In this document: positions 6,631 to 22,836 of the stretch, one piece after another
Layout of the letters: each line of letters begins with the position of its first letter
How positions within the stretch are numbered: the first letter of the stretch is position 1
Origin: Deltaproteobacteria bacterium
GTDB taxonomy: Bacteria > Desulfobacterota > Syntrophia > Syntrophales > UBA8958
Reading direction: 5' to 3'
NCBI GenBank assembly: GCA_029553375.1
Contig: JAKPCH010000017.1
Location: 1 to 57,739 of the forward strand
DNA length: 57,739 nt
Notes under the pieces: model-generated
What the model was told of the DNA's origin: nothing
What the model saw: the letters and a program-made list of their open reading frames with translations, nothing else
Database searches by the model: none
Made by a program: the position numbers and the translations under genes

Positions 6631-7446
6631 TCAGTTCTTGAGTTCGTCGAGGGGCAGGGTGACCTCCCGGCCGCTCTCCAGGGCGACCACCAGCTCGCGG
6701 TTGAGGATGTTCTGCCGGATCACCTTCCCCCGTCCCTGGGGGGTGGTGATGGTCTTGCCGCATTTGGGCATGTCCTTCCGCAGGTCGAGGTAGACCTCGT
6801 ATTCGTAGGCCAGACAGCACATCAGGCGCCCGCAGAGGCCGGAGATCTTTTCCGGGTTCAGGGACATCCCCTGCTCCTTGGCCATCTTCACCGTGACCCT
6901 GTCAAGGTTCTGGAGGGCGCGGGCGCAGCAGACCTCCCGGCCGCAGATCCCCAGCCCCCTCACCAGGCGGGCCTCCTGGCGGGCGCCGATCTGGCGGAGC
7001 TCGATGCGGGTCCGGAACCGCTGGACGAGGTCCTTCACCAGTTCCCGGAAGTCCACGCGGTTTTCCGCCGTGAAGTAGAAGATGACCTTGCTCCGGTCGA
7101 AGAGGCACTCGACGTCGATGACCTTCATGGGCAGGCCCCGCAGCTTGACCCGCTCGATGCAGAAGTCCTTGGCCTCTCCCTCGAGCCTCCGGTTCTCGGC
7201 GAGGGTGTGGAGATCGTCGTCGTCGGCCCTTCTCAGGACCTGGGGCAGCGCGGGCGGTTCCGCCTGCCCGCAGGGTTGGGGAGGGGAGGCGACCTCGCCC
7301 AGGGCCGGGCCCTGGTCCGTCTCCACGACGACGAGGTCCCCGGGGCACAGGGTGATCGTGGTCAGGAAGAACCGGAAGCTCTCCCCTTCCCTCTTGACCC
7401 TCACCCCGACGACCTGCTCCTTCTTGTCCGTCTCTCCCGTCGTCAT
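6631..7446 (-). CDS. ricT: PSP1-domain protein RicT/YaaT
   Basis: A 271-residue PSP1 (YaaT) family protein. In Bacillus subtilis RicT forms an Fe-S complex with RicA and RicF that affects RNase Y-dependent RNA processing and sporulation; no RicA or RicF gene is seen here, so the role is uncertain. The cysteine-rich core is clear: CGREVCCARAL and GLCGRLMCCLAYE supply most of the conserved cysteines. The N-terminus carries a short strand-rich part (VVGVRVKREGESFRFF) and the C-terminus ends in a small beta-rich segment. Its ATG overlaps the holB TGA (ATGA), indicating translational coupling, and it sits between holB and metG as in many bacteria. Confidence 0.92.
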   Translation of the reverse strand: MTTGETDKKEQVVGVRVKREGESFRFFLTTITLCPGDLVVVETDQGPALGEVASPPQPCGQAEPPALPQVLRRADDDDLHTLAENRRLEGEAKDFCIERVKLRGLPMKVIDVECLFDRSKVIFYFTAENRVDFRELVKDLVQRFRTRIELRQIGARQEARLVRGLGICGREVCCARALQNLDRVTVKMAKEQGMSLNPEKISGLCGRLMCCLAYEYEVYLDLRKDMPKCGKTITTPQGRGKVIRQNILNRELVVALESGREVTLPLDELKN

Positions 7447-8420
7447 AGGGCCAGCTTAAACACAGTGGTCTCTAAAGTCAACGTTTTGTTGGCGTTTTGC
7501 TCGATGAGGCGGAGGGCTTCATCGAGGAGACGGCAGTTTCTGAGGAGGGCCTTCGTCCCCAGGCGCACCGCCGTCCCCTCGGCCTCCCGCCGCCGCTCCC
7601 TCAGGACCACGGGGGCCTCGGGTCCCAGCGCCGCCAGGACGAGGGCGTCCCGGAAGAAGACCTTGAGGATCCCCAGGGCCTCCGCCAGGTTGTCCCGCTC
7701 CCTCCCCAGGAGGGAGATGAGGGAGAGGACCCTCAGGGGCCGGGGCCGCGTCTCGTCGGCGGCGCAGAGGACGATCTCCTCGCATCTCTTCAGGTAGCCC
7801 TCCTTGTGGAGAAGGAGGGCGTGGCGGATGCTTCCCCCCGCGGCCGCGGCGAGGAAGGCCGCCGTTTCCCCGTCGAGACCCGCCTCCTCCCGGAGGTGAA
7901 GGGCGACCTCTGCCGCCGCCAGGGGCGAGAAGGTGAGGCGCTGGCACCGGGAGAGGATCGTGGGGGGGAGCTGAAGGGGCCTGGAGGTGACGAGGATCAG
8001 GGTATTGGCCGCCGTGGGTTCCTCGAGGGTCTTCAGGAGGGCGTTGGCCGCCGGGGGATTCATCCGGTCCGCCTCGTCGACGATGACCACCCTCCTGGGG
8101 CCCTCGAGGGGATGGAGGGCCATCATCTCCATAAGACCCCTGATCTCCCCGATCTTGATGAAGGCCCCCTCCGGGGCCAGGGTGAGGACGTCGGGATGAC
8201 AGGCCCGCTCGATCTTCAGGCACGTCCCGCAGACCCCGCAGCCCTCGCCGTCTCTCGCCTCCCGGCAGAGGAGGGCCCGGGCGAAGGCCGTCGCCACCTT
8301 CTTCTTGCCGATGCCGTCCATCCCGCAGAAGAGGTAGGCGTGGGCGACCCTCCCCTTCGCGACGGCCCTCTTCAACAGGGCGATGGGACCGTCGTGCCCC
8401 CTGATACCCCTATAGGACAT
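7443..8420 (-). CDS. holB: DNA polymerase III subunit delta-prime
   Basis: Clamp-loader AAA+ subunit, 325 residues. Features are AHAYLFCGMDGIGKKK (Walker A-like P-loop), a four-cysteine zinc module (CREARDGEGCGVCGTCLK), VVIVDEADRMNPPAANALLKTLEEP (sensor and SRC-adjacent helix) and ILSRCQRL (SRC motif). The open frame continues upstream, but those residues are antisense/shadow of tmk, and MSYRGIRGHD is a natural delta-prime N-terminus, so the ATG at 8418-8420 is chosen; it overlaps the end of tmk by 11 bp. Zinc module and P-loop are both kept, so it may also act as a gamma/tau-like ATP-binding protein; holB is the better call because of its tmk-ricT neighbours. Confidence 0.92.
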   Translation of the reverse strand: MSYRGIRGHDGPIALLKRAVAKGRVAHAYLFCGMDGIGKKKVATAFARALLCREARDGEGCGVCGTCLKIERACHPDVLTLAPEGAFIKIGEIRGLMEMMALHPLEGPRRVVIVDEADRMNPPAANALLKTLEEPTAANTLILVTSRPLQLPPTILSRCQRLTFSPLAAAEVALHLREEAGLDGETAAFLAAAAGGSIRHALLLHKEGYLKRCEEIVLCAADETRPRPLRVLSLISLLGRERDNLAEALGILKVFFRDALVLAALGPEAPVVLRERRREAEGTAVRLGTKALLRNCRLLDEALRLIEQNANKTLTLETTVFKLAL

Positions 8421-9066
8421 AACCCCTCTCCCGCAGGAGATCCTCCATCTCCCGCCCGACGGCGGCGGCCACCTCCTCCACGGTGCCCTCGGCGGGGATG
8501 ACACGGAAACGCCCCGGGTCCCGGCGGGCCTCCTCGAGATAACCCCGCCGCACCGCCTCGTGAAAGGCCAGGTCCTCCCCCTCGAAACGATCCTCCGCCG
8601 GCCCCCCGCCGCGGTGGGCGATCCTCGTGAGGGCCCGGGACAGGCCCGCTTTGGGTTCCAGATCGAACAGGAAGGTCCGGTCGGGCCTCAGGGGACCCGT
8701 GGAGAGTTCGTTCACGAAGCGGACGGTCTCCAAGGGGAGCCCCCGGCCGTAGGCCTGGTAGGCGACGGTGGCGTCGGCGAAACGGTCGCAGAGGACGATG
8801 GTACCGGCGGCGAGGGCCGGTCCGATCACCTCGCGGCAGTGCTGGGCCCGGGCGGCGGCGAAGAGGAACAGTTCCGCCACGGCGTCCGGCGGGCGTTCTC
8901 CCCGGTTGAGGAGGAGGGCCCTGACGGCCGTCCCCAGGTCCGTGCCCCCCGGTTCCCGGGTGACGAGGACGGGGAGGGACCGTCGCCGGAGGCGCTCCGC
9001 CGCCAGGTCCACCTGGGTGGTTTTGCCGCACCCCTCGATGCCCTCGAAGGTGATGAAGAGACCCAT
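8410..9066 (-). CDS. tmk: Thymidylate kinase
   Basis: Phosphorylates dTMP to dTDP in the cytoplasm, feeding DNA synthesis. The 218-residue protein begins with GLFITFEGIEGCGKTTQ, a P-loop with the FEG motif of TMPK, then TREPGGTDLG (DR-containing substrate loop region), LLFAAARAQH-type helix and CDRFADATVAYQAYGRGL, which holds the conserved DRF/DRY and the TMP-binding residues. Length is normal for the family. It overlaps holB by 11 bp, an arrangement common in bacteria, and lies 51 bp downstream of the ferredoxin gene. Confidence 0.96.
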   Translation of the reverse strand: MGLFITFEGIEGCGKTTQVDLAAERLRRRSLPVLVTREPGGTDLGTAVRALLLNRGERPPDAVAELFLFAAARAQHCREVIGPALAAGTIVLCDRFADATVAYQAYGRGLPLETVRFVNELSTGPLRPDRTFLFDLEPKAGLSRALTRIAHRGGGPAEDRFEGEDLAFHEAVRRGYLEEARRDPGRFRVIPAEGTVEEVAAAVGREMEDLLRERGYVL

Positions 9067-9117
9067 CTTTGGAACCCCTTTATCCGTGGGGTTAAGGGGG
9101 AGAGGGAGGGAAGGTGG

Positions 9118-9616: not shown

Positions 9617-10216
9617 TCAGTTGGGCAGCTCGGAAAGCATCTCCCGGGCCACGTCCCGGGCGATGTCCTTCAAATCCGGTTTGATGAAGCTGTAGGACCG
9701 GTCGAGGAAATGACCGGCCTTCCACATGATCCGGCCCGTGGAGGTCTCGACGAGCTTCATGGCCATCCCCACCTTGCCCACCTTCTTGCCGCTCTCCTGG
9801 GTGTAGAGCCAGTAGTCGATGTTGACGAGGAGGAAGGCGTCCGCCTTGGTGATGGACCCGATCTTCCTGCTGAGCTCGGGGTCCGAGAAATTCACCGTCT
9901 TGAGCTTGAGGGTGTAATCCTGGTATGTCTTTCGCAACTCCTCGTTGGCCTTCAGCATTTCCCTCATGGCGTCGCCGGCGGTCACTTCCTTGAAGGCCTT
10001 CTTCTCCATGACGACACCGGCCAGGATGGTGTCCGCCACGTCCCGGGCCTCCTCGTAAGTGCCCACGTCGACGGGGAACACGGCCAAATGGCGGGGATGG
10101 AATTCCTTCGCCGCCGGATCGAGTTGGGAGTAACGAAGGCCCCCCCCGCAGGCCGCCAAGGCCAGAAGGGAGAACAATATCAACCCCAGGTGCGCCTTTT
10201 TCATCTTCGCCTTCAT
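9617..10216 (-). CDS. Lipoprotein, LpoB/GNA1162-like
   Basis: A 199-residue exported lipoprotein. The signal peptide ends in a clear lipobox LAAC, with the acylated cysteine at about residue 23, so it should be membrane anchored. The mature part has the alpha/beta pattern of the LpoB/CsgG/DUF799 group: HLAVFPVDVGTYEEARDVADTI near the N-terminus, FLLVNIDYW in the middle and STGRIMWKAGHF, where many members read TG.ivw.a. Function is not predictable beyond an envelope role. The strong AGGAGGGG upstream decides the ATG at 10214-10216. It lies 19 bp after ispH-ubiA and 11 bp before nfu. Confidence 0.8.
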   Translation of the reverse strand: MKAKMKKAHLGLILFSLLALAACGGGLRYSQLDPAAKEFHPRHLAVFPVDVGTYEEARDVADTILAGVVMEKKAFKEVTAGDAMREMLKANEELRKTYQDYTLKLKTVNFSDPELSRKIGSITKADAFLLVNIDYWLYTQESGKKVGKVGMAMKLVETSTGRIMWKAGHFLDRSYSFIKPDLKDIARDVAREMLSELPN

Positions 10217-10235
10217 ACCGCCCCTCCTTGTGCAC

Positions 10236-11981
10236 TTAAGGGAAGAGGATCCTTCCCACCGCCCAGAGGGCGCTTATGGCCCCCGACACGAGATAGACCG
10301 TCTCCAGGACGCCCTCCATCACCAGACCGGAAAACCCGGCCTCTCTATCATAAAGCCTGAAACAAATCCACATATAAAACGGGGTCAGGGTGAGGGGGAG
10401 GCTCAGGGAAGGGGCCCACCCCGCCCAGTAGGAGGCGGCCGTGATCAGGGCCACCACCGCCGTCACGCCCTTGAGGAGGAGGCGGGCGCGGGCCTCGCCG
10501 ATGAGGACGGGGATCGTCTCCCTCCCCATGAACCGGTCCCCCTGGATGTCGAGGATGTCGGAAAGGACGGACCGGATGAAGACGAGACCGAAGACGAAGG
10601 CAAAGGCCACGGCCGTGGCCGGCGTGAAGGGAGAGGGGACCGAGAGGGGGGGGATGAGGGCCGTCACCGTCCCCCAGGCGAGGGCCATGGAGATGTTCTT
10701 GGAGCCGGGGAGGTCCTTGAGGCTGCGGAAGCGCCCCCTGCCCGGCAGGAGGGGGGCGTTGTAGAGGCCCCCCAGGAGGGACATGAAGAACAAGAGGAGG
10801 AAGGGCCGGTGCCCCTCCCACAGGGCGAGGGCGAGGGCGGCGACGAGGGAAAGGGCGGCGGCGGTTAGGTACGCCTTCTCGTGGCGCTGGTAGGAGATCT
10901 CCCGAAAGGTTCCCAGGACCGTGCCCGCCCGGCGGTTGATCACCCGGTTGATGACGTGGATGGCCCAGACGTAGAGGGCCGCCATGGCGAGGGCGGAGGG
11001 CCGGTTGGGGAGGCCCTGGAGGAGGGAGGCCGTGTAGGCCAGGCAGGCGGCCCCCAGGGAGGAGTAGAGGTCCGTCCGGACGGCGGCGGCCCAGAGGCGG
11101 TAGACGCCCGTCGCCCGCCCCCCCCTCTCCCTCTGGGCGGCCGTCACCTCGTCCACGACCCGGTCGATGATCCAGTTGGGCGTCGAGGCCCCGGCGGAGA
11201 CGCCGACCCGGTCCCAGGCCTGAAGGGCCGCCGGGTCCAACTCCTCCGGCGTCTCGATGTGGGCGACGGGAATGCCCCGCCGCCGCGCCAGGTCGGCCAA
11301 TCTCTTCGTGTTGGCGCTGTTGCGGCCCCCGACGATGATCATGGCGTCCATCTCCCGGGCGAGGGCCTCCACCTCCCCCTGCCTCTTTTCCGTGGAGTCG
11401 CAGATGGTGTTGAAGACCACGGCATGGGGGAAACGTCCCTGGACGGCCTCGCAGACGGCCCGGTACTCCTCGGGGTTCTGAGTCGTCTGGGCGACGACGC
11501 AGACCTTGTCCAACTCCGGGAGGGCGGCGACGTCGGCGGGCGAGGAGAGGAGGATCCCCCGGCCTTCGGCGTAACCCAAAAGGCCGTTCACCTCGGGGTG
11601 GGCCTCGTCGCCCACGATCAGGATATGGTAGCCCTCCCGCGCGTGCTTCTTGATGATCCCCTGGACGAGGCCGACGCGGGGGCAGGTGGCGTCCACGATG
11701 CGCAGGCCCGTCTCCTTGAGTCGTCTCCTTTCCTGGGGGGAGATGCCGTGGGCGCGGATAATGACCATGGAACCCTTGTCCTTACCCGCCAGCTCGTCGA
11801 GGGAGGCGATGGGGATGATCCCCCTCTTTCTCAGGAGTTCCACCGTCTGGGGGTTGTGGATGAGGGGGCCGTAGGTGTAGACGGTCTCGTTTCCCTTGCG
11901 CTGGGCCACCTCGAGGACGAGATCGACCGCCCTCTTCACCCCCATGCAGAAACCCGCCGTCTGGGCCAGCTTAACGGCCAT
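10236..11981 (-). CDS. ispH: IspH (HMBPP reductase) fused to a UbiA-type prenyltransferase
   Basis: Residues 1-280 are a complete IspH, the [4Fe-4S] enzyme reducing HMBPP to IPP and DMAPP, the last MEP-pathway step: cluster cysteines C12, C100 and C194, substrate residues H42, H78, H128, E130 (GDEAHPE), T167 and the SxN pair at 222-224. From about 295 to the end (581) is a polytopic membrane domain of the UbiA superfamily, with about eight hydrophobic helices. Its second aspartate motif SDILDIQGDR is kept (D475, D478, D482), but the first motif, usually NDxxDxxxD, reads NRVINRRAG, so metal-bound diphosphate chemistry may be altered. No stop or restart lies between the halves. It overlaps tlyA by 11 bp and ends the xseA-dxs cluster. 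Confidence 0.93.
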   Translation of the reverse strand: MAVKLAQTAGFCMGVKRAVDLVLEVAQRKGNETVYTYGPLIHNPQTVELLRKRGIIPIASLDELAGKDKGSMVIIRAHGISPQERRRLKETGLRIVDATCPRVGLVQGIIKKHAREGYHILIVGDEAHPEVNGLLGYAEGRGILLSSPADVAALPELDKVCVVAQTTQNPEEYRAVCEAVQGRFPHAVVFNTICDSTEKRQGEVEALAREMDAMIIVGGRNSANTKRLADLARRRGIPVAHIETPEELDPAALQAWDRVGVSAGASTPNWIIDRVVDEVTAAQRERGGRATGVYRLWAAAVRTDLYSSLGAACLAYTASLLQGLPNRPSALAMAALYVWAIHVINRVINRRAGTVLGTFREISYQRHEKAYLTAAALSLVAALALALWEGHRPFLLLFFMSLLGGLYNAPLLPGRGRFRSLKDLPGSKNISMALAWGTVTALIPPLSVPSPFTPATAVAFAFVFGLVFIRSVLSDILDIQGDRFMGRETIPVLIGEARARLLLKGVTAVVALITAASYWAGWAPSLSLPLTLTPFYMWICFRLYDREAGFSGLVMEGVLETVYLVSGAISALWAVGRILFP

Positions 11982-18590: not shown

Positions 18591-19673
18591 ATGGCGAAGA
18601 TAGATGCGTTTTTCCACCTGATGCACGAAGAGGGGGCCTCGGACCTGCACCTCGTCACGGGTCAGCAGCCGGCCATCCGGATCAGGGGCGAGATCGAGAG
18701 GATCCGCTACGACGTCCTGGACAACGACAGCCTCAAGGCCATGCTCTACGAGATCGCCCCTGAGCACAAGATCAAGCAGTTCGAAGAAACGGGGGACGTG
18801 GATTTCGCCTACGAGATCCCCGGCCTGGCCCGTTACCGCGCCAACTTCTTCATGCAGAAGTGGGGATGCGCCGCCGTGTTCCGCGAGATCCCCAGCACCA
18901 TCCTCACGGCGGAGCAGCTCGGCCTCCCCCCCGTCGTCTCCAAGCTCGCCTCCCTCCCCCGCGGTCTCGTCCTCGTCACGGGACCCACGGGGAGCGGCAA
19001 GTCGACGACCCTGGCGGCCATCATCGATCAGGCCAACAGGACGAGGAAGGATCACATCATCACCATCGAGGATCCCATCGAGTTCGTCCACCAGAGTCAG
19101 AGCTGTATCGTGAACCACCGGGAGGTGGGCGTCCACACGAAGAGCTTCGCCGCGGCCCTGCGGGGTGCCCTCCGCGAGGACCCGGACATCATCCTCGTGG
19201 GTGAGATGCGTGACCTGGAGACCATCCGTCTCGCCGTGGAGGCGGCCTCGACGGGCCACCTCGTCTTCGGGACCCTCCACACCACCAGCGCCGCCAAGAC
19301 GGTGGACCGCGTCATCGAGGTCTTCCCGGCGAGCGAGCAGGCCCAGATACGTTCCACACTCGCCGACGGCATCCGCGCCGTCATCGCCCAGGTCCTCTTC
19401 AAGAGGATCGACAAGAAGGGACGGTGCGCCGCCTTGGAGATCATGATCGCCAACAGCGCCGTCCGTAACCTCATCCGCGAGGGCAAGACCTTCCAGATCC
19501 CCTCCATGATCCAGACGGGGAAGAAGTACGGCATGCAGCTCCTCGACGACGCCATCAACGACCTGCTCATGAAGGGCTGGATAAGCCCCGACGAGGCCTA
19601 CGCCAAGGCCAACGACAAGGCCCGGTTCCGGCCGTTCCTGAAGAACCCGCCGGCTGATTTCACCGAGGCGTGA
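18591..19673 (+). CDS. pilT: Type IV pilus twitching motility ATPase PilT
   Basis: Hexameric secretion-type ATPase that powers pilus retraction at the inner-membrane base of the type IV pilus. The 360-residue protein has Walker A GPTGSGKST (131-139), the Asp box ITIEDPIEF (158-165), Walker B with ILVGEMRD (201-208), the His box TGHLVFGTLHTTSAAKT, and the PilT C-terminal motif AVRNLIREGK that separates PilT from PilB. Length is typical. AAGGAGG precedes the ATG. It starts a three-gene operon with a second PilT-like ATPase; pilin, PilB and PilC genes are not in the window. Confidence 0.96.
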   Translation: MAKIDAFFHLMHEEGASDLHLVTGQQPAIRIRGEIERIRYDVLDNDSLKAMLYEIAPEHKIKQFEETGDVDFAYEIPGLARYRANFFMQKWGCAAVFREIPSTILTAEQLGLPPVVSKLASLPRGLVLVTGPTGSGKSTTLAAIIDQANRTRKDHIITIEDPIEFVHQSQSCIVNHREVGVHTKSFAAALRGALREDPDIILVGEMRDLETIRLAVEAASTGHLVFGTLHTTSAAKTVDRVIEVFPASEQAQIRSTLADGIRAVIAQVLFKRIDKKGRCAALEIMIANSAVRNLIREGKTFQIPSMIQTGKKYGMQLLDDAINDLLMKGWISPDEAYAKANDKARFRPFLKNPPADFTEA

Positions 19674-19689
19674 CGGAGGAGGAAGAGAC

Positions 19690-20871
19690 ATGAGAAAGCA
19701 GGAGATAGATTACATCCTCGGCCGGATGCTCGACGCCTACGGAAACGTTTCGGACCTGAACATCACCGTGGGCAAACCCTTCCAGGTGGAGACCTCGGGC
19801 GAGCTGACGGGGGTGCCCATCGACCCCCCCTTCGAGAAATTGACCCCCTTCCAGACGGAGATCTTCGCCCTGAACCTCATCAACCAGGACCGGCGTCTCA
19901 CCGAGACCCTCCTGAGGGAAGGGTCCTGCGACTCCTCCTACGAGCTGCCCGGTAAGGCCCGCTTCCGCGTCAACATCTTCTCCCAGCGGGGTGACTACTC
20001 CATCGTTCTGAGGAAACTGGAGACGAGGATCCCCACCTGCAAGGACCTCGATCTCCCCGAGGCCTTCTACAAGATGGCGGAGGAGAAGAACGGGATCATC
20101 CTCGTCACGGGCGCCACGGGGAGCGGCAAGTCCACGTCCCTGGCCGCCGTCCTCAACGAGATCAACGAGAAGAAATCGGTCCACATCGTCACCCTCGAGG
20201 ACCCCGTGGAGTTTTCCCATCCCCACAAGAAGGCCACCTTCAACCAGCGGGAGATGGGGAACGACTTCGACACCTTCGCCAACGGCCTGAGGGCGGCCCT
20301 CCGCCAGGCGCCGAAGGTCATCCTCGTGGGGGAGATGCGCGACCGCGAGACCGTCGAGATCGGCCTCTCCGCCGCCGAGACGGGCCATCTCGTCCTCAGC
20401 ACCCTTCACACCGTCGATGCCGGCCAGACGATCAACCGCATCCTCGGCATGTTCCCCCACGAGGAGGAGACCCAGATCCGGATCCGCCTCGCCGACACGG
20501 TAAGATGGATCGTCTGCCAGCGCCTCCTGCCCAAGGTGGGAGGGGGAAGGGTGGCGGCCTTCGAGATCATGGGCTCGAACCTCCGTATCAAGGACACGAT
20601 CCTCCACGGCGAATCGGAGGGCAAGACCTTCTACGAGATAATCCAGGCCAGTCGGGCCTTCGGCATGATCACCTTCGACGACTACATCGTGGAGCTCTTC
20701 AAGAAGGGGCTCATCACGGAGGAAACGGCCCGCGCCTATGCCTCCAACAAGGGCGTCGTGGGCCGCGGGATCGACGCCGTCAAGAGCGCCGCCGGTCAGG
20801 CCACGACGGATCTGGGTAAACTGACCATCGACAAGGACTACGGCAAACCGGCCCGGCCGTCATTCCGGTAG
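19690..20871 (+). CDS. Second PilT/PilU-family retraction ATPase
   Basis: A 393-residue PilT-family ATPase directly after pilT (16-bp gap, GGAGGAAGAG Shine-Dalgarno). It carries GATGSGKST (Walker A), VTLEDPVEF (Asp box), VILVGEMRD (Walker B) and TGHLVLSTLHTVDA (His box), with an N-terminal PAS-like domain. The C-terminal helix motif differs from PilT (SNLRIKDTILHGES in place of AVRNLIRE), as in accessory retraction ATPases of the PilU type. About 45 extra C-terminal residues (after GLITEETARAYAS) form a low-complexity, lysine- and aspartate-rich tail. A PilU role is inferred from position and paralogy. Confidence 0.9.
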   Translation: MRKQEIDYILGRMLDAYGNVSDLNITVGKPFQVETSGELTGVPIDPPFEKLTPFQTEIFALNLINQDRRLTETLLREGSCDSSYELPGKARFRVNIFSQRGDYSIVLRKLETRIPTCKDLDLPEAFYKMAEEKNGIILVTGATGSGKSTSLAAVLNEINEKKSVHIVTLEDPVEFSHPHKKATFNQREMGNDFDTFANGLRAALRQAPKVILVGEMRDRETVEIGLSAAETGHLVLSTLHTVDAGQTINRILGMFPHEEETQIRIRLADTVRWIVCQRLLPKVGGGRVAAFEIMGSNLRIKDTILHGESEGKTFYEIIQASRAFGMITFDDYIVELFKKGLITEETARAYASNKGVVGRGIDAVKSAAGQATTDLGKLTIDKDYGKPARPSFR

Positions 20872-20889
20872 GGCAAAGGAGGGGATTGC

Positions 20890-21405
20890 GTGGAACAGCC
20901 CAAGAGCGTGTTGACGGAAGTGGCGGAAGGCACCTACGACGCCGCGGACATGCCCTTCGACTTCGTGGCGGAGGGGATGGAGACGGCCCTCCTCTGCGAG
21001 GCCGACCCCGCCGGGAGGGAGAAACTCGCCGAGGCCGTCAGAAGTCTGGGGTATCGGGTCACCGAGGCCGCGAGTGCCCGGGACGCCCTGAAGAAGGCCC
21101 GTTTTCACGTCTTCGATCTTGTCGTCGTCAACGAACTCTTCGACACGGACAGCCCCGAGGCCAACGACGTCCTGACCTACTTCAGCTCCCTCCCCATGGT
21201 GACGCGCCGGCGCATGTTCGTCGTCCTGGTGACGGAGAGGTTCCGCACCATGGACAACATGGCGGCCTTCAACAAGAGCGTCAATCTCACCCTCAACGTG
21301 AAGAACGTCGAGGACGCGGCGGCGATCATCAAGAAGGGGGTGGCGGACCACTCGGCCTTCTACCACGTCTTCAAGGAGACCCTGAAGAAGATGGGGAGGC
21401 TATGA
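20890..21405 (+). CDS. Degenerate receiver-domain protein of the pilT operon
   Basis: A 171-residue protein whose central part (about 30-150) matches a CheY-like fold: ALLCEADPAGREKLAEAV as strand-helix 1, GYRVTEAASARDAL as strand 2, DLVVVNELFD as strand 3 and FVVLVTERFRTMDNMAAF as strand 4. The phosphoacceptor aspartate is replaced by N81, so it is unlikely to be phosphorylated and would be a pseudoreceiver. The start is GTG at 20890 with AAAGGAGGGG ahead; no other start fits. Its place behind two retraction ATPases suggests a regulatory or scaffolding part in pilus retraction; this is inference. Confidence 0.8.
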   Translation: MEQPKSVLTEVAEGTYDAADMPFDFVAEGMETALLCEADPAGREKLAEAVRSLGYRVTEAASARDALKKARFHVFDLVVVNELFDTDSPEANDVLTYFSSLPMVTRRRMFVVLVTERFRTMDNMAAFNKSVNLTLNVKNVEDAAAIIKKGVADHSAFYHVFKETLKKMGRL

Positions 21406-21428
21406 CGGAGGTCTTCGGGAGGCTTTTT

Positions 21429-22364
21429 CTATAGGTTTTGGGCCCGCCGGAGGGCCTCCTGGGCCTCTTCGTATAACCCGTCGGCGAGATAGGCCTCCGC
21501 CAGGCGGAGGAGGTAGAGGGGGTTGGCCGGTTCGGCGGCGACGGCCAGGCGGAAGGCCCGGCAGGCCTCGGCGGGGAGGGACTTCTTCATGAGGCTGTTG
21601 CCGAGACGCTGGTAATAGGCGCCGGCGGCGCCCTCGAAGAGGCGGACCGCCTCCTCGTAGGCCGAGAAGGCCCCCTCCGTATCCCCCCCCGCCAGGAGTA
21701 TGTCCCCCAAGGCCAGATGGAAGGCGGGCTTCGTGTCGTCGAAGGCGATGCCTTTGCGGATGGCCCGCTCGGCCGAGGCGAGGCGGTCGGCCTTGAGAAA
21801 GGCATCGGCCAGGCGGGAGTAGTAAAGGCCCGTGTCCTGGGGATCGAGGGAGATGGCCTTCTCGTAGGCCCTCTCCGCGCCCTCCTCGTCGTCGAGGGCG
21901 ATGAGGGCGTCTCCCATGCGGCAGTAAACGACCGATTCCCTCGGGTCGAGGGCGATCATCCTCTGGAAGACGGAGACCGCCTCGGCGGCCATCTCGGCCT
22001 TGAGGTAGGCCTCCGCCAGGTCCCCCAGGAGGGCGAAATCATCCGGCTGGGCGGCGACGGCCCGCTCGCAGATCGCCACGAGGCGGTCCGTCATGTTCTC
22101 CCTTTTGTAGATCCTCACGAGCTCGTCGAAGGCGAAACCGGTGAAGATCCGCCGGGAGACCTCCTTTTCGAAGAGTTCCTCCAGGCAGGCGAGGGCCTCC
22201 GCCAACTGGCCGTTGTCGTGGTAGGCCCAGGCCAGTTTCATGACGTAAGAGTCTTCTCCCCGGTGGAGGTCCCTCAGGTGGAGGAGGAGGGGGATGGCCT
22301 CGGCGAAGCGTCCCGCCTCCATGTGATCCTCCGCCAGCTTGAGGAGGTAATCCGAATCTGCCAT
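21429..22364 (-). CDS. TPR-repeat protein
   Basis: A 311-residue all-helical protein with about eight tetratricopeptide repeats of 34 residues, for example AEAIPLLLHL, AEALACLEELF, AAEAVSVFQRMIALDP and EEGAERAYEKAISLDPQDTG. There is no signal peptide or membrane segment, so it is probably a cytoplasmic adaptor. ATG at 22362-22364 is chosen; a TTG nine codons upstream also keeps the frame, and neither has a well-placed Shine-Dalgarno. It converges with the pilT operon and lies 51 bp after the selenoprotein gene, with which it may share a transcript. Partner proteins cannot be named. Confidence 0.85.
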   Translation of the reverse strand: MADSDYLLKLAEDHMEAGRFAEAIPLLLHLRDLHRGEDSYVMKLAWAYHDNGQLAEALACLEELFEKEVSRRIFTGFAFDELVRIYKRENMTDRLVAICERAVAAQPDDFALLGDLAEAYLKAEMAAEAVSVFQRMIALDPRESVVYCRMGDALIALDDEEGAERAYEKAISLDPQDTGLYYSRLADAFLKADRLASAERAIRKGIAFDDTKPAFHLALGDILLAGGDTEGAFSAYEEAVRLFEGAAGAYYQRLGNSLMKKSLPAEACRAFRLAVAAEPANPLYLLRLAEAYLADGLYEEAQEALRRAQNL

Positions 22365-22415
22365 GTTGATGACGGGGATGTCGTCTCCCAAGAGGTCCTA
22401 AATCTACCGATAGGG

Positions 22416-22733
22416 TCAACAGGCGCTGCAGGAACCCCCGCAACCGCCCATGGCACTCTGCAGGCTCGACGTGAGGCGGAAACCCGAGCCCATGGCGCTC
22501 GTTATGAAGTCGACGGCGATGGGTTTGGCCTCCTCGTACAGGTCGCGGTCGATGAGGAAGGTCAGGCCGTTGTCTTGAATGACCTCGTCGTTGTCCTGCG
22601 GCTCATCCAGAGCCATGCCCAATGAGGGCCCGCCTCAACCGGCCGTCATGAAGATCCTGATGGAGAGAGGGCCGCTGCGACCCTTGAGGAACTCCTTTAT
22701 CATCTCGTTTGCCTTTTCCGATACCTGAAGCAT
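22416..22733 (-). CDS. HesB/IscA-like selenoprotein (UGA read as selenocysteine)
   Basis: Two open pieces in one frame are joined by a single TGA (22635-22637). Read through, they give a 105-residue HesB/IscA-like protein: MLQVSEKANEMIKEFL, then FMTAG-U33-GGPSLGMALDEP and a C-terminal GGCGGSCSAC. In Cys homologs the U position is cysteine (GGCGGPSLG). HesB-like selenoproteins are a known prokaryotic family. A strong AAGGAGG lies upstream of the ATG at 22731-22733. The 3' part has no start or Shine-Dalgarno of its own, and it keeps all conserved residues, which argues against a nonsense pseudogene. A SECIS-like hairpin lies downstream of the UGA. The protein probably binds Fe-S clusters; its client is not known. 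Confidence 0.9.
22600..22614 (-). promoter_or_regulatory. Candidate bacterial SECIS hairpin
   Basis: In the minus-strand mRNA, GGCTC and GAGCC form a 5-bp stem closing the loop TGGAT. The loop begins 25 nt after the UGA and has a G at its second position, which fits the spacing and loop preference known for bacterial SECIS elements bound by SelB. Confidence 0.7.
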
Positions 22734-22836
22734 CTCTTCCTCCTTGTGTTTGACCCCCGGGGGGGTGAAGTGGGCGCTAAGGTAGCCACGAAAAAAAGGT
22801 TTGTCAATCGATTTCAAAAAATATATTTTCCCCGCC

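Follow-up and report, generated by a model that had tools for sequence, protein, structure and literature searches.

The window analysed here, a stretch of 57,739 nucleotides from a deltaproteobacterium of the order Syntrophales, carries on its minus strand a gene of the IscA/HesB family whose frame (M...U33...C105) is broken only by an in-frame TGA and closes at a terminal TGA at 22416-22418 (Table 1). An earlier note, made from the sequence alone, had proposed that the internal TGA splits a gene, that reading it as selenocysteine (Sec) restores a protein of 105 residues, that a good Shine-Dalgarno sequence precedes the 5' end, and that the 3' piece has no restart signal of its own; each of these points was borne out. 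Plain ORF calling returned two pieces, a 93-residue ORF whose start lies too far upstream and which ends at the internal TGA, and a 68-residue ORF for which the sole possible start is a TTG (22622), with no Shine-Dalgarno sequence visible ahead of it on inspection of the sequence. A separate, re-initiated 3' peptide was rejected as an explanation. Sites of the GGAG type, comparable to the AAGGAGG found here, lie upstream of the gene in nearly all relatives.

Table 1. Features of the proposed selenoprotein locus and the SelB-type factors of the host genome
Feature	Position	Strand	Basis or remark
Putative IscA/HesB-family selenoprotein gene	22416-22733	minus	105 residues with TGA read as U; U33; C-terminal cysteines C98/C102/C105
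In-frame TGA, proposed selenocysteine codon 33	22635-22637	minus	Translation and codon comparison across relatives
Shine-Dalgarno AAGGAGG	22739-22745	minus	5 bases before the ATG at 22733
Candidate bacterial SECIS hairpin GGCUC-UGGAU-GAGCC	22600-22614	minus	Covariation, RNAalifold consensus, codon freeze, published bSECIS rules
TPR-repeat protein gene	21429-22391	minus	Pfam TPR; synteny
SelB-type factor	L078 (G000:C71) 9896-11839		40% identity to the other factor
SelB-type factor	L077 (G000:C26) 7193-9100		40% identity to the other factor

The read-through protein scored 106.7 bits against the NCBIfam model NF038090 (IscA_HesB_Se), above its cut-off of 85, and its two halves matched consecutive positions of that model (1-32 and 39-101 of 101). 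The expectation that standard annotation would lose the gene thus holds for plain ORF calling but not for annotation with NF038090, which recognises it. The match extends over the full length, and most relatives in this family have Sec at the same site; the present lineage differs by a one-residue deletion just before the Sec (TAGUGG versus xGGUSG). The Pfam model Fe-S_biosyn gave 25.8 bits, slightly below its cut-off of 26.3. TIGR01911 (HesB_rel_seleno) describes a related protein that could be aligned over residues 3-87, but the score of 47.7 bits lies below the cut-off of 66.35, which places the gene in a different HesB-Sec subfamily. Similarly, the scores against the equivalog models of IscA (38.9, cut-off 150.6), ErpA (35.1, cut-off 117), and SufA (34.5, cut-off 136.2) are so far below threshold that the protein belongs to a subfamily separate from these carriers.

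Among PDB entries, a profile built from 39 relatives matched Escherichia coli IscA, SufA, and an Aquifex relative, and the AlphaFold2 model (mean pLDDT 83) was most similar to [2Fe-2S]-bound IscA (1x0g; Foldseek E 1.1e-6). In the model, residue 33 is located in a turn between strands 24-32 and 35-42, and the C-terminal tail (94-105) that carries the cysteine cluster is modelled with a pLDDT below 50. Of the three cysteines that bind the cluster in IscA, the first (Cys35 in E. coli) is the counterpart of U33 in the alignment, and Cys-containing homologues align at the same position, in agreement with the placement of U33 at the cluster-binding site in the earlier note. The protein shares with the A-type Fe-S carriers IscA, SufA, and ErpA of E. 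coli the fold and the position of the first ligand, and differs from them in having Sec in place of Cys and a C-x3-C-x2-C tail instead of their C-G-C.

Of 155 genomes from the class, 121 encode a member of the NF038090 family that scores above the cut-off, and almost all of these members have a single TGA. Among 61 distinct relatives, codon 33 was TGA in 56, TGT in three, and TGC in two; TAA, TAG or any other sense codon was not found at this site in this set. Together with the consecutive matches of both halves to NF038090, this recurrence of TGA at one codon, with Cys in the remaining five, takes the split gene beyond chance. A decayed 3' half was not found among the relatives either, so two of the observations that had been named as potentially refuting the proposal, other stop codons at the site and decay of the 3' half, failed to appear. 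Past the UGA, the sequences of one pair from the same family are 82% identical in amino acids and 74% in nucleotides (dN 0.13 versus dS 1.9), a divergence that points to purifying selection on the 3' half. As a separate observation, two in-frame TGA codons interrupt a HesB-family copy in one genome (G048:C193:10560-10856), next to which lies a tandem copy that has none.

The predicted SECIS hairpin has a 5 bp stem, which starts 20 nt downstream of the UGA within the coding region, and a 5-nt apical loop (UGGAU), which lies 25 nt after the UGA. The published rules for bacterial SECIS elements (stem of 4-16 bp, loop of 3-9 nt, a G in the first two loop positions, a distance of 16-37 nt from the UGA, and a minimum free energy of at most -7.5 kcal/mol; PMC13188914) were applied by hand in place of bSECISearch, and the hairpin, which folds alone at -9.1 kcal/mol, satisfied all of them. 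A SECIS-like hairpin at the expected distance, as the earlier note had suggested, is therefore supported by these rules and by covariation of the stem. No RNA element in Rfam matched at the hairpin at gathering thresholds. The isolated hairpin was equalled in stability by 1 of 200 shuffles, but in energy-only tests of longer windows (38-81 nt) its stability was unremarkable, and hence the SECIS assignment rests on comparative evidence.

Pairing was kept in 94.4% of the cells of an alignment of 42 distinct Sec genes, against at most 51% for a slid partner, with double changes at pairs 25-37 and 26-36 (G-C to A-U, U-A, and U-G; C-G to U-A), and RNAalifold returned a consensus structure among the relatives that supports the hairpin. 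The loop reads UGGAY in all 56 TGA copies. Moreover, synonymous choice is frozen within the hairpin: alanine is encoded by GCT in 37 of 37 cases, against a share of 13% for GCT among alanine codons in the rest of these genes, leucine by CTG in 43 of 43, and glutamate by GAG in 41 of 43 (log10 P of -33, -15, and -14 for GCT, CTG, and GAG, respectively, not corrected for common descent). The surrounding codons are for the most part free to vary, with weaker deviations of CCC at codon +3 and of proline at +12. Pairing also survives amino-acid changes, in the combinations GTT with GAA, TCT with GAG ACA, and ACT with GAG TCA. Since synonymous choice is frozen at the hairpin and pairing is kept where amino acids change, the conservation seen in these alignments is not explained by the protein sequence.

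The proposal further required the host to possess SelA, SelB, SelD, and tRNA-Sec, and a search with family models of its genome (2.4 Mb in 96 contigs, with a listed completeness of 100%) recovered all four: SelA (601 bits), SelD (389 bits; L048, G000:C55:66293-67222), SelB (370 bits; two genes), and one tRNA-Sec with a TCA anticodon (UCA in the RNA; 75 bits). The SelD gene has an in-frame TGA of its own, and SelD is itself likely a selenoprotein. The occurrence of two SelB genes beside a single detected tRNA-Sec was an additional observation, and no precedent for organisms with two SelB was found in the passages of the literature that were consulted. The SelB gene at L078 is situated just downstream of a gene for a selenium transporter of the YedE family (L078:7956-9173), and its nearest relative, at 61%, occurs in one family member (G008).

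Four of the Cys-encoding copies could be placed in the tree, where they occupy three separate places among the Sec copies. If the root, which is not established, was a Sec form, the simplest reading of this tree would be that Sec reverted to Cys on several occasions. One of the genomes with TGT at codon 33 (G003; same family, 97% complete) is without SelA, SelB, and tRNA-Sec, its best tRNA-Sec score being 47.6 bits, versus 75-78 for real ones. The hairpin stem in this genome is intact, and the loop is UAGAU, versus UGGAU, such that one of the two conserved Gs is gone. From its sequence, this gene (L037, G003:C1) is likely a natural Sec-to-Cys reversion with a remnant SECIS.

The TPR gene begins 24 bases after the stop codon of the HesB-Sec gene, its own start codon being uncertain, and is its same-strand neighbour in 27 of the 46 loci of distinct relatives; the two genes are probably co-transcribed. 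Over 18591-22733, two PilT genes and a receiver-like gene on the plus strand converge with the TPR and HesB-Sec genes on the minus strand. Many of the 27 TPR-linked loci also have the convergent receiver-like gene, and the two PilT genes where the flank is long enough, which suggests an operon and gene order conserved across the order. On the basis of this gene order, one might imagine that in this class the Sec-containing IscA and its TPR neighbour, beside genes for type IV pilus retraction, constitute a Sec-dependent module dedicated to maturation or sensing and distinct from ISC and SUF, an idea we consider improbable.

Taken together, comparative sequence analysis argues, with a probability of about 0.96 by our estimate, for a selenoprotein of the IscA/HesB (A-type carrier) family in which UGA 33 is read as Sec by way of the hairpin and SelB, with Sec33 in a ligand position. 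SelB carrying Sec-tRNA(Sec) would bind the hairpin inside the coding region, whereupon the ribosome would decode UGA 33 as selenocysteine. According to the alignment and the model, Sec33 would occupy the place of the first cluster ligand among the three cysteines, in a tight turn flanked by two beta strands, and it probably faces the Cys-rich C-terminal tail, a part that is not confidently modelled. By virtue of its fold, the protein might carry or repair an Fe-S cluster, or handle a metal or sulphur species, through Sec33 and the tail cysteines.

A reading in which the TGA genuinely terminates translation, or stems from faulty sequencing or assembly, and the IscA gene is broken or consists of two parts would fit the two pieces obtained by plain ORF calling and the unexceptional energy of the hairpin in longer windows, but is extremely improbable in view of a TGA shared by 56 distinct relatives with Cys in the rest and never TAA or TAG, the purifying selection on the 3' half, the poorly equipped TTG start of the 3' piece, and the full Sec machinery in the genome. 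Hardly any weight can be given either to decoding of the UGA outside the SelB/SECIS route (as Trp or Cys, or by near-cognate suppression), with the hairpin codons kept for reasons of protein sequence or codon usage. The conservation of LDE and GMALDE in the protein would be in line with such a scenario, but a fixed codon choice is confined to the hairpin, where it involves the otherwise rare GCT, pairs are kept while amino acids change (A to V with GAG to GAA; A to S or T with P to T, A, or S), and long ordinary genes in the window terminate normally under the standard code.

A further alternative concerns function only: the protein would be a selenoprotein as proposed, with Sec33 acting in redox chemistry or in the binding of metals, such as in the handling of selenium, mercury or arsenic, and not in Fe-S transfer. 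The C-x3-C-x2-C tail, which is not the C-G-C of IscA, favours this option, as do the low equivalog scores, which set the protein apart from simple orthologues of the known carriers; the fold and ligand position, which match cluster-bound IscA (1x0g), speak against it, and we regard it as rather unlikely, albeit a serious contender. Under either reading, the protein would probably bind Fe-S or a metal or handle it by redox chemistry. In the archaeon Methanococcus maripaludis, a disruption mutant of a HesB-like selenoprotein still fixed nitrogen (PMC11097638), and neither this study nor PMC13188914 gives a function for HesB-like selenoproteins.

As the earlier note had recognised, the family is not new. 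HesB-like selenoproteins of Deltaproteobacteria and Clostridia were described in a 2006 survey (PMC1794560), which lists Syntrophus aciditrophicus, Syntrophobacter fumaroxidans, and Geobacter sulfurreducens among others, and reports reversion from Sec to Cys, with a remnant SECIS in a Cys version from Desulfitobacterium hafniense. The family, the Sec at this site, the type of SECIS, and remnant SECIS elements in Cys forms are thus all already published; the gene described here resembles those proteins in having Sec in an IscA/HesB protein and adds no new property, so that existing knowledge of recoding is unchanged by it. It does provide a clean and well-documented case of a gene missed by plain gene callers. 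Moreover, the contribution of Sec to an A-type carrier could be tested on the natural variants found in this class, which comprise many Sec forms and several Cys forms nested among them, one of the latter in a genome without Sec-decoding genes.
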